Shown here piece after piece: positions 16,363 to 21,548 of a DNA stretch of 34,428 nucleotides (positions are counted from its first letter, which is position 1; every line of letters begins with the position of its first letter). The position numbers and the translations under genes are program-made. A model generated the notes under the pieces. It did not search any database and was not told the DNA's origin. It saw only the letters and a program-made list of their open reading frames with translations. The DNA lies in NCBI GenBank assembly GCA_903897335.1, contig CAIUAY010000210.1:1-34428 (forward strand), in the 5' to 3' direction. This DNA comes from an uncultured Chromatium sp. (GTDB taxonomy: Bacteria > Pseudomonadota > Gammaproteobacteria > Chromatiales > Chromatiaceae).

Positions 16363-17511
16363 GTGTATAACGATTACTACTCCCCGGATGAATGGGAAAA
16401 ATTCATCAGATTTTCCGAGACCAAAGAGACGCCATTTCTGGTCGTGATGCTGGATATCGTCCGGCAGAAATTTGAAGAATTCCGGGCGAGCTTTCCGTAT
16501 GCAAAGATCTATTACGCGATCAAGGCCAATCCAGGTAACGAGGTTCTGGCACTGCTGCGGGATCTTGGCGCTTATTTCGATGTCGCCTCGATCTATGAAC
16601 TCGACAAGCTGCTGGCACTCGATGTGTCACCGGATCGCGTGAGTTTTGGCAATACCATCAAAAAAGCAAAACATATCGGCGAGGCCTACGATAAAGGCGT
16701 CAGGCTCTTTACCACAGACAGTGAGATGGACATCCGTGCGCTTGCCAAAGAAGCGCCCGGATCGCGGGTTTTTTTCCGCATCCTGATGGAAGCCATCACC
16801 TCTGACTGGCCGCTTTCACGTAAATTTGGCTGCCAGCCACGGATGCTGACAGAGCTGGTCTCACTGGCCGCCGATCTCGGTCTGGAACCACATGGCATTT
16901 CATTTCATGTCGGATCGCAGCAGCGCGAAATCTCGGCCTGGGATGCGGCCATCGCCAAGGCAAACTATCTGTTTGAATGGATGGAAGAAGAGCATATCCA
17001 TCTGAAGGCACTGAACATGGGCGGCGGTTTTCCAGCCAATTACATGAATAAAACCAATCCGCTTTCTGTCTATGCGGAAGAAATCAGCCGTTATCTCGGC
17101 CTGCATTTTGGCGATGACGTTCCTGAAATCTATCTTGAGCCAGGACGTGGACTGGTCGGAGAGGCCGGCATTCTGGCAAGCGAAGTGGTTCTAATCGCCA
17201 AGAAATCCAAGACCGACCTGAAACGCTGGGTTTACACGGATGTTGGCAAATTCAACGGGCTAATGGAAACCATTGATGAATCCATTAAATATCCGGCATA
17301 TACGGAGAAGAATGGCGAAACCGGGGATGTGATTCTGGCAGGGCCGACCTGCGACAGCCAGGATATCATGTACGAAGAATTCAAATACCAGCTTCCGTTG
17401 TCACTGGAAGTCGGCGACCGAATTTACTGGTTATCCACGGGTGCGTATACCACAACCTATAGCGCGATTGAATTCAATGGGTTTCCGCCATTGAAGACCT
17501 ACTACCTGTAA
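16363..17511 (+). CDS. Fold-III ornithine/lysine decarboxylase
   Basis: This PLP enzyme of the alanine-racemase fold (ODC/LDC/DAP-decarboxylase family) decarboxylates ornithine (or lysine) to putrescine (or cadaverine). The 382-residue product carries YYAIKANPGN with PLP-Lys54, FGNTIKK, the SFHVGSQQ histidine, NMGGGFPANY, YLEPGRGLVGEAG and the active-site Cys in GPTCDSQD near 330. All are typical of bacterial and eukaryotic-type ODC. The start is GTG at 16363, with AAGAGA just upstream and an in-frame stop at 16345, so no longer form exists. The 122-bp gap upstream is AT-richer and probably holds its promoter. A strong terminator follows. It presumably supplies putrescine to the next two enzymes. 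Confidence 0.9.
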   Translation: MYNDYYSPDEWEKFIRFSETKETPFLVVMLDIVRQKFEEFRASFPYAKIYYAIKANPGNEVLALLRDLGAYFDVASIYELDKLLALDVSPDRVSFGNTIKKAKHIGEAYDKGVRLFTTDSEMDIRALAKEAPGSRVFFRILMEAITSDWPLSRKFGCQPRMLTELVSLAADLGLEPHGISFHVGSQQREISAWDAAIAKANYLFEWMEEEHIHLKALNMGGGFPANYMNKTNPLSVYAEEISRYLGLHFGDDVPEIYLEPGRGLVGEAGILASEVVLIAKKSKTDLKRWVYTDVGKFNGLMETIDESIKYPAYTEKNGETGDVILAGPTCDSQDIMYEEFKYQLPLSLEVGDRIYWLSTGAYTTTYSAIEFNGFPPLKTYYL

Positions 17512-17527: not shown

Positions 17528-17580
17528 CCGGACAGGTTGGCCTGGTCAACAACCAGGCCGCCTGTTCCGGATCATTTTGT
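17528..17580 (+). terminator. Strong intrinsic terminator between convergent polyamine genes
   Basis: CCGGA-CAGG-GGCCTGG pairs with CCAGGCC-CCTG-TCCGG around the loop TCAACAA, giving a long stem (17528-17570) with only a small internal bulge. It is followed by ATCATTTTGTTTT. It ends the decarboxylase transcript. The T-rich side overlaps the last codons of the convergent dehydrogenase gene, whose stop is at 17572-17574. The stem may also act in the other direction, though without a good T-run. Confidence 0.75.
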
Positions 17581-18912
17581 TTTGGGCGCCAGCGCAATCA
17601 TTGGATTTGCTGCTGAAACCGTGACAGTTGCCGTTGATTCCGCCAGTTCCTGCTCCAGCTCTCTCACTGTGCCATCAAAGGATTTCAGGCTTCCTGGCTC
17701 AATCTCCAGGATCTCGGTCGGCAGGCCGATCTGATCAAGTAAAGCAATGAAGGGTTCGGGATCGAGTTCCTCGACATTCACCATTGTTTTTGGATCCCAG
17801 ATGCCCTGGGCAACCAGTAGCGCCGCCGCGACGGGCGGAACGCCAGCGGTATAGCTGATGCCCTGGGACTCGACCTCTTCATAACATTGATGGTGATCCG
17901 ACACCTGATAGATGAAGATTTCACGCTGCTGGCCGTCCTTCCAGCCCTTGACGACGTTGCCGATGCAGGTCTTGCCGGTATAGCCCGGCGCGAGTGTCAT
18001 CGGATCCGGCAACAGCGCCTTGACCACTTTGAGTGGCACGACTTCCTGACCGGTGCTCAATGTCACCGGCAGATGCGACAGCAGTCCGAGTGTGCGCAGA
18101 ACCGTGAAGACGTTGATGTAGTGATCGCCAAAGCCCATCCAGAACCGGATGCTGTTGGCGTCAATATTTTTCGAGAGTGAATGCAGCTCATCATGCCCAT
18201 TCAGATAGATCGGGCAGGAACCCACGACCGGGAAATCGTAGGTGCGCTTGACTGAATGAGTGGGATACTCTTTCCATTGACGGTCGATCCAAGTCCAGAC
18301 CTTGACGAATTCGCGGAAATTGATTTCTGGATCGAAATTCGTGGCGAAATATTTGCCGTGGCTTCCAGCGTTCACGTCCAGGATGTCAATGGTATCAATC
18401 TTGTCGAAATAGCGCTTCGCCGCCAATGCACAATAGGCATTAACGACGCCTGGATCAAATCCAGCGCCCAGAATTACCGTCAATCCCTGTTCAGCGCAGC
18501 GCGCTTTGCGCCTCCATTCGTAATTGGCATACCAGGGCGGGGTTTCACAGACCTTGTCCGGGTCTTCATGGATCGCCGTGTCGATATAGACCGCGCCGGT
18601 TTCAAGACAGGCTTCCAAAATAGACATATTGAGGAATGCCGAGCCGAGATTGATCACAATTTCCGAATTGGTCTCTCGAATCAGCTTCACGGTTTCAGGA
18701 ATGTCGAGCGCATCGAGCTGACGTGAAGAAAACGTTTTTGAAGCATCCTTGAGATGCCCTTTCCGCTTGACGCTGTCGATGATCTGATCGCACTTCGACA
18801 ACGTTCGTGACGCAATACAGATATTACCCAGTCTATCGTTATGCATGGCGGCTTTATGCGCGGCCACATGCGCGACGCCACCCGCGCCAATGATGAGCAC
18901 ATTTTCTTTCAT
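17572..18912 (-). CDS. Carboxynorspermidine/carboxyspermidine dehydrogenase
   Basis: This NADPH-dependent enzyme reductively condenses aspartate semialdehyde with putrescine (or diaminopropane) to carboxyspermidine (or carboxynorspermidine). The 446-residue product begins MKENVLIIGAGGVAHVAAHKAA, a Rossmann GxGGxA site. It continues with the saccharopine-dehydrogenase-family pattern: NICIASRTLSKCDQI, EIVINLGSAFLNMSILEACLETGAVYIDTA and ILGAGFDPGVVNAYCALAAK. The family has about 400 residues; here roughly 40 extra residues form a Glu-rich then Ala/Val-rich tail. ATG 18912 is the only family-like start. The frame stays open for 141 codons upstream, but that stretch is the noncoding element. The start lies directly at the element edge, with no clear ribosome site. 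Confidence 0.92.
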   Translation of the reverse strand: MKENVLIIGAGGVAHVAAHKAAMHNDRLGNICIASRTLSKCDQIIDSVKRKGHLKDASKTFSSRQLDALDIPETVKLIRETNSEIVINLGSAFLNMSILEACLETGAVYIDTAIHEDPDKVCETPPWYANYEWRRKARCAEQGLTVILGAGFDPGVVNAYCALAAKRYFDKIDTIDILDVNAGSHGKYFATNFDPEINFREFVKVWTWIDRQWKEYPTHSVKRTYDFPVVGSCPIYLNGHDELHSLSKNIDANSIRFWMGFGDHYINVFTVLRTLGLLSHLPVTLSTGQEVVPLKVVKALLPDPMTLAPGYTGKTCIGNVVKGWKDGQQREIFIYQVSDHHQCYEEVESQGISYTAGVPPVAAALLVAQGIWDPKTMVNVEELDPEPFIALLDQIGLPTEILEIEPGSLKSFDGTVRELEQELAESTATVTVSAANPMIALAPKTK

Positions 18913-19380
18913 CAGTCTTGCGCGAGAAACCCCGTCCTTCAGGGCGGGGAGGCAGAGCGCACGGCGCGAAGCGTCGTGAAGCCGCTGATCTCGCATCCTC
19001 CGTCTCAGTTTGGTTGATGACGTGTGACCGCAACCATGCAGCCACCGTGAATGGGTGCAGGCTTTCCACCTGCCGGGTCGTGAGACTCTGCGCTGACGCG
19101 CCTGGTGACGGTGCCACGTCTCACGACGTGACACGCTCCCCTCGACCAGGTTATCCGTGGGTTTTCGCACCCTTTCGGGTCTATCCCTAGAAGTGGCACT
19201 GGCTTCGTACCCCTTACGCCTGTTTAACCACCTGCCGCAGGTCTGGAACTGAGGAAGCATTCCAGAGTGCCGATCACACCGGCTGACGCCGGATTCCACA
19301 GTCACGTCGCTCCTTACAGGGCGTGGTCTGGTCAACTCCGGAACTTGCTCTTACAAGTTCCCGCCTTCAGGCGGGGTAGT
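18913..19380 (-). mobile_element. Noncoding IS200/IS605-ISC-type remnant (palindrome-bounded)
   Basis: This 468-bp stretch between two same-strand genes has no plausible protein. It is bounded by two hairpins in the same orientation with identical TTCA loops: 18930-18949 (CCCCGTCC/GGGCGGGG, one GU pair) and 19360-19375 (CCCGCC/GGCGGG). Such subterminal palindromes mark IS200/IS605-superfamily ends, including IscB-carrying ISC elements. No TnpA, TnpB or IscB coding sequence is present, so it can only move if helped in trans. On the minus strand, the left end would be at about 19380 and the right end beside ATGA at 18912. That ATGA is the start codon of the next gene. Exact ends are inferred. 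Confidence 0.6.
18925..19380 (-). ncRNA. Orphan omega-RNA (HEARO-like) candidate
   Basis: The element holds a dense set of stems: 19341-19347 with 19354-19360 (GAACTTG/CAAGTTC), 19279-19283 with 19288-19292 (CCGGC/GCCGG), 19230-19234 with 19238-19242, 19169-19172 with 19177-19180 (ACCC/GGGT), 19111-19120 with 19125-19134 (nine pairs, one mismatch) and 19057-19061 with 19069-19073. Omega-RNAs of IscB (first described as HEARO RNAs) are long multi-stem transcripts at the left end of such elements, with the guide taken from flanking DNA at their 5' end. The sequence looks like HEARO examples to me from memory. Without an Rfam/Infernal search, family and exact limits remain inferred. No nuclease gene is nearby. 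Confidence 0.5.
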
Positions 19381-19399
19381 TGACTGCTATTTTTCTCAC

Positions 19400-20506
19400 T
19401 CAGGAAAGACTGTATTTGAAATCACGGTAACCAAACTTCCGAACCACGTCCAGGGTTCCATCGAGTCGGCGCACGACGATTGATGGCATGGGAACGCCAT
19501 TGAACCAGTTGGTCTTAACCATCGTGTAGCCCCCAGCGTCCGCAAAGCGGACTTCGCTACCGATCTGTAACGGCGCATCCAGATCATACTCGCCGAATAT
19601 GTCACCCGCGAGACAGGTGCGACCGGCAACCATCATCCGATGCGATCCAGATTCCGGGACGGTCATTCCAGGATGCGTGTGATAGATCAGATGATCGAGA
19701 CAATGCGCTTCAACAGAAGCGTCGACAATTGCGATCTCGATTTCATTGTGCACGACATCAAGCACGGTCGTGACCAGCTCGGTGGAATGCGTGACCACCG
19801 CTTCGCCAGGCTCCAGATAGATCTGAATGCCAAACTGTTCGCTGAACTGTTTCAGTCTTTCACAGAAACGCTCAAGCGGATAGCCCGCCTGGGTAAATGC
19901 CAGGCCACCGCCAAGGCTGACCCATTCCATTTTTTCAAGGATTGAACCATATTGATTTCCGATGCTATCGAGAGCCGTACAAAGACTGTCAATATCATTG
20001 TTTTCGCAGTTAAAATGGAACATCAGCCCAGTTAATAGAGGGGCGATTTCAATCACGCTGATGTGATCAACAACGCCAAGCCGTGAATATTTTCTAGCGG
20101 GATCAGCAAGATCAAAATGTGAATAGCTGATTCCAGGGTTAATGCGTAATCCAATATTCATTTCACGAATATCGTCATAATACATTTTAAACTGAGAGAC
20201 TGAATTAAAAATGATCTTGTCGGCAAATTTCCTGAGTATCCTGATGTCTTTTCTGGAAAATCCGACGCTGTAGGCATGGACTTCCTTTCCAAATTTTTCA
20301 GCACCCAGCCTGGCTTCAAACAACGAACTGCTAGTGGTTCCATCCATATATTGCCGCATCAGATCAAATACGCACCAGGCTGAAAAGCATTTCAGCGCAA
20401 GCACCGATTTCGCTCCAGAGATTTCTCGGATCTGTTGGATGATCTCAAGATTTTTCTGGAGTTGATGCTCATCAATTAAATAATAAGGCGTCGCCAGCTT
20501 TTTCAT
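19400..20506 (-). CDS. nspC: Carboxynorspermidine/carboxyspermidine decarboxylase
   Basis: This PLP enzyme removes the carboxyl group from carboxynorspermidine or carboxyspermidine to give norspermidine or spermidine. The 368-residue product has LALKCFSAW with PLP-Lys39, the MDGTTSSSLFEARLG segment typical of NspC, LMFHFNCENND, WVSLGGGLAF, YLEPGEAVV and the active-site Cys in GRTCLAGDIFGEYD. Length matches the family (about 370-380). The N-terminal third (about 20000-20500) is clearly more AT-rich than neighbouring genes. ATG 20506 is the natural start. With the downstream dehydrogenase and the fold-III decarboxylase it completes the alternative spermidine route without S-adenosylmethionine decarboxylase. 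The mobile remnant separates it from the dehydrogenase gene. Confidence 0.93.
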   Translation of the reverse strand: MKKLATPYYLIDEHQLQKNLEIIQQIREISGAKSVLALKCFSAWCVFDLMRQYMDGTTSSSLFEARLGAEKFGKEVHAYSVGFSRKDIRILRKFADKIIFNSVSQFKMYYDDIREMNIGLRINPGISYSHFDLADPARKYSRLGVVDHISVIEIAPLLTGLMFHFNCENNDIDSLCTALDSIGNQYGSILEKMEWVSLGGGLAFTQAGYPLERFCERLKQFSEQFGIQIYLEPGEAVVTHSTELVTTVLDVVHNEIEIAIVDASVEAHCLDHLIYHTHPGMTVPESGSHRMMVAGRTCLAGDIFGEYDLDAPLQIGSEVRFADAGGYTMVKTNWFNGVPMPSIVVRRLDGTLDVVRKFGYRDFKYSLS

Positions 20507-20540
20507 GCGTCGATCATTCCATTAAAGGTGATGAATCCAG

Positions 20541-21548
20541 TTAACTTCCAGACGGGCGAGCCTCGCCAGTTCCCGTCACGGCAAGTCGCAGGCCATCACG
20601 GATCGCCATGGCCTCCGTGTTGGTACAGACCAGGCTGGCGGTGAGCAGATTTTTGCATTCCAGATCCAGATACAAACGCACAGGCTCCTGCGCGTTCTTC
20701 TGGAGCCAGACGAGCGTCAGTAGACGTTCTTCGCGTGCGTCCCGGGAAATGGCGATCAACAGCCCCTGGCCAAGAATTTCATCCTGTGCATGGGTCTGGG
20801 TGCGCACATAGCTCAGCGCCTTCTCCCAGTCTTGATTACACGCGATGCTGTTGGTGCAGCTCACGAGATTGCCTAACTGTGGTTCCAGGGTAAGTTGCGG
20901 ATCGGGTTCCGGGAGCTTTTTGAGCGTCCTGTAGCGCGCCATGACCTCCTCAAATTCAGCACGGATCTCGGCTTTGCGGAATTCCTGATCCAGAATCGTG
21001 GCATAACCTGAGCGGATTAGACGCACGGCATCGGCGATGTCCGCCTGAATTGGCGCATCCAGTGGTTTATCCGTGCGTTTGAGCTCAGCGGATTTTTGAT
21101 GTAGCTCACGCAGCCGTCGCAGCTCACGACGCACCCGGTCGCGGATCACCTGACAGAGCGCTTCGACCGCCGCAACCTTTCCATCTCTGGCGAGGCGAAT
21201 ATCATCCATGGAACGAAAACGCGCCAGAATCTGCTGATTGGCCAGATTTTCCTGCTCAAGACGCTGAGCCGCTTGCAGTTTCGCCTGTTCCGCTGCGCTG
21301 GCTTCCTGAGAGCCGTCTTCGGTAGATGCCGGTTCGACAACTTCTGTTTGCAACCCTTCCTGATTAAGTTTGGCATGACCCTTTGCCGCCTGAGCTGGTG
21401 GAATCTGATCGGAATAATGCACTGTTCCTGCATCATCGACCCAGCGATACATTCGTGTCTCGGCGGAGCCAACGCGCATCCACCAACCAAACAGGCACAG
21501 CACACCGAGCATCACGGCAATCCGCCATGAGAACCGGCGAGCGTCCAT
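20541..21548 (-). CDS. Secreted or membrane-anchored DUF4124-domain protein
   Basis: The 335-residue product begins with a signal-like segment (RFSWRIAVMLGVLCLFGWWMRVGSA). Next comes a DUF4124 motif, RMYRWVDDAGTVHYSDQIPP, common in gammaproteobacterial envelope proteins. A long Glu/Gln/Ala-rich helical region, probably coiled coil (about 60-180), follows. The C-terminal domain has four Cys (VSCTNSIACNQDW and LDLECKNLLTASLVCTN) that may form disulfides in the periplasm. The domain's biochemical role is unknown. ATG 21548 starts just after the pyrE stop; ATG 21560 would overlap pyrE by 11 bp. Tight spacing suggests co-transcription with pyrE. Confidence 0.8.
   Translation of the reverse strand: MDARRFSWRIAVMLGVLCLFGWWMRVGSAETRMYRWVDDAGTVHYSDQIPPAQAAKGHAKLNQEGLQTEVVEPASTEDGSQEASAAEQAKLQAAQRLEQENLANQQILARFRSMDDIRLARDGKVAAVEALCQVIRDRVRRELRRLRELHQKSAELKRTDKPLDAPIQADIADAVRLIRSGYATILDQEFRKAEIRAEFEEVMARYRTLKKLPEPDPQLTLEPQLGNLVSCTNSIACNQDWEKALSYVRTQTHAQDEILGQGLLIAISRDAREERLLTLVWLQKNAQEPVRLYLDLECKNLLTASLVCTNTEAMAIRDGLRLAVTGTGEARPSGS

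Follow-up and report, generated by a model that had tools for sequence, protein, structure and literature searches.

The spacer at positions 18913 to 19399, which separates a decarboxylase gene from a dehydrogenase gene on the minus strand, raises the question of what kind of structured sequence lies between two presumed polyamine genes and what keeps it there, directly before a start codon. The DNA analyzed, referred to as the window, is one whole contig of 34,428 bases from a 3.29 Mb genome in 277 contigs (label G000). An earlier sequence-only reading had described a noncoding block of 468 bp at 18913-19380, bounded by two hairpins in the same orientation, and had interpreted it as an orphan omega-RNA.

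Structure of the element in the spacer

From their sequences, the product of the dehydrogenase gene is predicted to be carboxynorspermidine dehydrogenase, and the decarboxylase gene is probably nspC; a homologue of the decarboxylase is present at 73 of the 80 loci of dehydrogenase relatives. A second PLP decarboxylase gene, by Pfam of the ornithine/arginine type, lies at 16363-17511 on the plus strand, convergent with the dehydrogenase gene. No sigma-70-like promoter was found in 18600-20600. The locus comprises the following features:

17572-18912, minus strand: saccharopine-dehydrogenase-like gene, 446 aa (Pfam PF03435 and PF16653)
18909-18912, minus strand: ATGA, the target motif and predicted TAM, including the ATG start codon of the dehydrogenase gene
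18913-19384, minus strand: the entire element, 472 bp, probably a non-autonomous ISC/HEARO element, with its left end at 19384 and its right end at 18913
18930-18949, minus strand: right-end hairpin, identified from the sequence and oriented like the left one
18977-19003, minus strand: remnant of the iscB 3' end, 27 bases, one mismatch to the tail pattern, original stop codon altered
19130-19384, minus strand: omega-RNA scaffold (HEARO, RF02033), 97 bits, with compensatory changes among nine copies
19360-19375, minus strand: left-end hairpin, identified from the sequence; two pairs exchanged between C-G and G-C in three of nine copies
19385-19408, minus strand: predicted guide of 16-24 nt, directly 5' of the omega-RNA
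19400-20506, minus strand: PLP-dependent decarboxylase gene, 368 aa (Pfam PF00278 and PF02784)

The similarity among the copies in this genome begins at the left end with GTCAAC and ceases at the right end before ATGA, placing the limits of the element at, or a few bases from, 18913 and 19384. The block described earlier is thus a real inserted unit, but it is four bases longer and ends at 19384. Its proposed HEARO form was borne out by the minus-strand match to RF02033, which exceeded the gathering score of 83 bits (E 6.7e-19), extended over model positions 1-211 and hence the full length of the model, and was the sole Rfam family above its threshold in the window. Both hairpins are present as described, with GC-rich stems and TTCA loops; in other copies, a similar stretch, partly with imperfect pairing, was seen by eye before the right end. 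The absence of IscB, TnpB and TnpA, also claimed before, holds in so far as the contig has no RRXRR, Y1 or OrfB matches and the element no iscB reading frame. What had escaped notice is the 27-base iscB tail, the only part left, which was recognized by a pattern derived from the copies that fits the intact iscB copy exactly. The guide had been expected in minus-strand sequence just beyond the block, and the predicted guide does lie there; it would consist of the sequence from the end of the decarboxylase gene to the start of the dehydrogenase gene together with the final decarboxylase bases.

The common predicted fold of nine copies of the same subtype has 68 pairs, 10 of which are changed on both sides, and 95.5% of its cells are paired, compared to 26-45% when the partners were slid by one to three columns. 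None of 500 shuffles attained the covariation score of this fold, 9 equalled its count of doubly changed pairs and 82 its number of pair types, figures that are to be read with the fold being derived from the very alignment tested and with shuffles overstating significance for related copies. Part of the compensatory change may predate the insertion of the copies. The folding energy of the element is mildly unusual (z -2.33).

The nuclease-less family and the resident IscB

A search of the remaining genome for IscB genes and further copies, as the sequence-only reading had proposed, was productive and yielded 15 HEARO matches, 10 of them above the cut-off, and one IscB gene. The right end was detected in 12 of the 15 copies, 11 of which also have the left end, the exception being the iscB-bearing copy. 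The window element is therefore a member of a multi-copy family with common ends. Nine standalone copies of its subtype share 71-89% mutual identity over the omega-RNA, and the window copy differs from the eight others by 12-25%. The right end of the iscB-bearing copy is the same as that of the standalone copies, and the iscB 3' tail, with no more than one mismatch, has been kept in 9 of the 11 standalone copies in which the right end was detected, so that these look like derivatives produced by internal deletion. The simplest reading of the standalone family is a deletion within an iscB element that later multiplied. The element is nuclease-less, as its description as an orphan implied, but it is no lone relic.

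Several copies depart from this pattern. C104b and C67 (L160 and L161) lack the tail and are also the two with a Shine-Dalgarno-like GGAG before the ATG; they perhaps form a separate derivative line. In C35 and C140 (L162 and L167) neither the right end nor the iscB tail was detected, and the 3' part diverges from the family. At L010 (G000:C104:7344-7726) the omega-RNA match is 383 nt long, and the stretch around CTAAGGGGCTCCGTTTGCAAC occurs three times within it.

The only RRXRR (IscB) match in the genome lies on contig C122 (L016:1495-2841), off the contig of the window. Its frame is open over 448 residues and includes the RuvC motifs DPGS and HALDAACV. At the position in the HNH domain where 26 of the other 28 aligned loci have a His (L047 and L056 being one gene) and two have a gap, the resident IscB has an Asn; the His at this position is presumably the catalytic one. 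In addition, some 60 bases are missing from the start of its omega-RNA. With gaps counted, the identity to the omega-RNA of the window is 31% for that of the resident iscB copy, whereas C104a, the nearest copy to it in the genome, reaches 42%. A working partner for the window RNA was thus not found in this genome, as its IscB carries the Asn and is accompanied by an omega-RNA of another subtype without its 5' part. Judged by its sequence the resident IscB looks impaired, and it is possibly a natural nickase, a dead protein or one that relies on other guides; it is also possible that a second iscB gene is missing from the fragmented assembly. Seven Y1 matches occur in the genome, some of which are pieces of one gene. 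Two short end motifs of the element were looked for at the Y1 and OrfB loci L017-L032 and had no match there, which is weak evidence. In G010, the genome of a relative, 29 RRXRR and 22 HEARO matches were counted, the iscB-bearing form is multi-copy, and several contigs end in or near it (L142, L143, L146, L150 and L049).

Insertion sites and start codons

When the flanks of the window copy are joined, 15 bases separate the decarboxylase stop codon from the dehydrogenase ATG, equal to the distance at L069 and L294, and the surrounding sequence aligns. Over 72 bases, the junction of G037 is that of L069, Thiocystis violacea DSM 207, and that of G032 is the one of L078, Allochromatium warmingii. 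The genome of the window belongs to the family of G037 and G032, and its host is accordingly inferred to be one of the Chromatiaceae. Full-length relatives of the dehydrogenase are present in four of six other genomes of the same genus (L315-L318), the other two having none. All four lack the element before the dehydrogenase ATG, and at L316 and L318 the decarboxylase tail immediately precedes it, so that the block is not conserved at this locus as an ordinary leader, the finding that would have spoken against the sequence-only reading. The window element is an insertion, the flanks of which rejoin to the decarboxylase-dehydrogenase junction of relatives.

A second empty site was available at grpE, where the left flank of the sister copy terminates in CCTTTGGAGCCAGAAAAC and the right flank starts with ATGAACACGGA. 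At L309 and L310, CCTTTGGAGGTCAAC is directly followed by ATGAACACGGA, and L308 is similar; at L307, L311 and L312 the start of grpE is too divergent for the comparison. At both sites the flanks rejoin and a target duplication is absent. These two comparisons indicate that the element goes in downstream of the native ribosome-binding site and directly before the start codon, with both retained.

The right end is followed by ATGA in all 12 copies of this genome in which it was detected, the detection accepting ATGA, GTGA, ATAA and GTAA. In 11 of the 12 an ORF of 100 aa or more begins with this ATG, namely in 10 of 11 standalone copies (the exception is C60c) and in the iscB copy; the right end of these copies thus stands at the start of an ORF, an arrangement referred to as docking. 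The fraction exceeds that at all ATGA sites in the flanks (null 0.157, p 1.5e-8) and that at non-coding or start-proximal ATGA sites (37/148, null 0.25, p 2.2e-6). The docked gene of the window encodes the dehydrogenase; the first 150 residues of the other 10 docked proteins were scanned against Pfam, and a DsrE-like protein, GrpE, two response regulators, RmlD, DUF6858 and the N-terminus of a RuBisCO large chain scored above the cut-off, a cytochrome c assembly match remained below it and two proteins had no match. The docked GrpE is the single GrpE match in the genome. Some of the genes at which copies are docked are core genes.

Docking was also determined in three further genomes, G172, G287 and G384, of another family within the class. 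At a threshold of 80 aa, 15 of 29 ATGA-type copies were docked in G172 (null 0.154, p 6e-6), 17 of 38 in G287 (null 0.204, p 6e-4) and 7 of 9 in G384 (null 0.222, p 6e-4), resulting in 50 of 88 for the four genomes together (nulls 0.154-0.222). Of 24 docked proteins printed for G287 and G384, 10 recognizable ones were chosen by eye for Pfam analysis; matches were homocysteine methyltransferase, HU, KaiB, biotin carboxylase, PdxA, ThiG, SurA, FeoB and a PEP-utilising enzyme, and one protein had none. Copies in G010 and G032 were seen by eye to be docked at a response regulator gene and at ubiG- and purE-like genes. Some copies of G172, such as L181, L186 and L198, belong to a subfamily with the right end against GTGA instead of ATGA. 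None of the 17 GTGA-type copies (15 in G172, two in G287) was docked, which at nulls of 0.125 and 0.138 is no clear depletion.

Two further ideas on the docked copies were considered and rejected. A Shine-Dalgarno signal built into the right end is present at the ATGA-type copies of G287 (mean -5.87 compared to -2.53 kcal/mol at random ATGA sites) and G172 (-4.96 compared to -2.08), but in the genome of the window, where by eye only C104b and C67 have one, the mean was -1.56 compared to -2.44 kcal/mol; the signal hence does not explain docking here. A frame of 587 aa runs from the window element into the dehydrogenase; in other copies of G000 and in those of G384 the upstream in-phase frame varies from 9 to 79 codons with no common start, which argues against a conserved peptide as well as against a coupled reading frame.

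Copy divergence and the proposed persistence of docked copies

For the relation of docking to copy divergence, taken as the mean distance to the three nearest copies, 125 copies were examined (15 in G000, 50 in G172, 45 in G287 and 15 in G384, in the latter three mostly the better-scoring ones). HEARO matches numbered at least 124 in G172 (141 of 282 candidates scored), at least 69 in G287 and at least 37 in G384, and RRXRR matches five, four and four, several of them partial. Of the copies examined, 108 had a detectable right end, against ATGA in 88, GTGA in 17 and ATAA or GTAA in three, which were left aside; a copy was counted as docked if the ATG began an open frame of 80 aa or more, frames running off the sequence included. 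The docked share of the 88 ATGA-type copies rose with divergence from 15/39 (below 2%) over 2/4, 10/18 and 15/19 to 8/8 (above 15%; p 1.8e-4). In a worst-case count, in which undetected right ends were taken as undocked and four of the 17 copies concerned were omitted for having less than 200 bases of sequence beyond, the shares were 15/43, 2/5, 10/22, 15/19 and 8/12 (p 0.002). At 100 aa the pooled trend had p 0.001, or 0.008 in the worst case. Taken singly, G172 displayed the trend (p 0.005; worst case 0.002); G000, G287 and G384 did not, and much of the pooled trend is therefore a difference between genomes. The pooled trend fits a protection of docked copies from loss.

Taken together, the window element is probably an IscB-deleted, non-autonomous element of the ISC (IS200/IS605-like) type with a full omega-RNA and right end, whose docked position would be retained by dependence of the host gene. 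Such an element would rely for its movement on a Y1 transposase that acts in trans and takes ATGA as target. Once transcribed, it would yield an RNA whose guide reproduces the sequence found 5' of the insertion. IscB with the omega-RNA would then cut only the empty site, where the guide sequence is followed by ATGA, and the element would be copied back after loss, while the occupied site would be spared because GTCA stands in place of ATGA. A 17-base query, made of the 13 guide bases nearest to the element followed by ATGA, had a sole match in the genome when as many as two mismatches were allowed, the element's own left end with GTCA; such a pattern would be expected of an IscB that cleaves the empty site and leaves the occupied one intact. 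The docked right end would become the 5' leader of the gene, its deletion would harm the host, and docked copies would outlast others. Points against this reading are the Asn of the resident IscB and the different subtype of its omega-RNA, the negative searches for a promoter and for the end motifs, the weak Shine-Dalgarno signal of the right ends in this genome, the lack of an age trend in G000, G287 and G384 each taken alone, and the shuffles that equalled the pair counts. We tentatively suggest, as an idea with some way to go before it could be called probable, that docking at start codons is a strategy of persistence in which recapture guards young copies and gene dependence old ones, and that the element RNA may control the docked genes.

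Other readings of the locus have to be weighed against this. The element may be a dead remnant, a copy that arose long ago by internal deletion, is no longer transcribed or guided and is tolerated as the next gene is dispensable or translated anyway. The impaired look of the resident IscB and its different omega-RNA subtype, the divergence of the window copy from the others of its subtype and the undetected right ends of C35 and C140 agree with such a history. The stems have, however, been kept by compensatory changes among the copies, though these are possibly older than the insertions, and a sister element precedes the only grpE found, a gene that is hardly dispensable; we regard a dead remnant as rather doubtful, if not by a wide measure. 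The omega-RNA or the right end may also have been domesticated as a cis-regulatory leader that controls the next gene, docking then being a benefit to the host. This would suit the positions before DsrE-like, GrpE, response-regulator, RmlD and RuBisCO large-chain genes and before others in G287 and G384. Yet the docked genes have no evident pathway in common, the site of the window is not shared by the four genomes of the genus that have the gene, and even among the near-identical copies of G287 only 14 of 34 are docked, which makes a domesticated leader unlikely.

A native leader, riboswitch or other structured RNA of the polyamine operon is the reading that the position between two genes on the same strand and the high degree of structure would suggest by themselves. 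It was rejected and retains hardly any credibility, as the element matches HEARO over its full length, recurs before unrelated genes and is lacking at this junction in relatives.

ISC and IS200/IS605-type elements have non-autonomous derivatives (PATE/MITE-like). The IscB-deleted element of the window resembles such elements in its subterminal hairpins of the same orientation, in the lack of target duplication (at the dehydrogenase and grpE sites) and in a fixed short motif at one end, and it differs in that the target motif is a start codon in most copies of this genome and that no transposase is linked to it. Compared to HEARO RF02033, it is alike in the full-length match and in the order of guide, scaffold and right end, but has no iscB ORF behind. 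In the original description of HEARO, the integration sites are reportedly ATGA or GTGA. AwaIscB of A. warmingii has an ATGA-type TAM; the nearest IscB locus compared, L034, is 75.7% identical to the resident IscB and belongs to G032, the genome with the A. warmingii junction (L078), whereas the resident IscB lacks the HNH His. Ktedonobacter is said to be a case in which a standalone omega-RNA acts with IscB. That standalone omega-RNAs are able to act with IscB in trans has already been published (PMC9581776, citing earlier work), and the present family is likewise made up of guide loci without a nuclease and an IscB elsewhere in the genome. Unlike those in print, most copies here are bounded by both transposon ends and lie directly against a start codon, and the IscB looks impaired. 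A similar TAM has been published for DtIsrB, a relative, which prefers NTGA (TTGA at 60 degrees), with TTGA and ATGA targets being cut (PMC9581776). HEARO RNAs and their nucleases, only few of them beside TnpA, are described in PMC9755519, and a study on cyanobacteria excluded HEARO RNAs as remnants of mobility and urged study of their location near genes (PMC8400943). Among the literature matches listed (titles and abstract openings), none concerned docking of such elements at start codons.

The survival of elements with IscB, a nuclease ancestral to Cas9, is usually credited to RNA-guided recapture. The present arrangement offers a second reason that can be tested, as the element stops right at a start codon and the host gene may depend on it. 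The large numbers of omega-RNA matches in G172, G287 and G384, with at most five RRXRR matches in each, mean that guide RNAs have spread with few nuclease genes, and such expansions constitute natural guide libraries together with their empty sites. In the genome of the window, the docked grpE, RuBisCO large-chain and dsrE-like genes are hosts at which effects of the element would be measurable.
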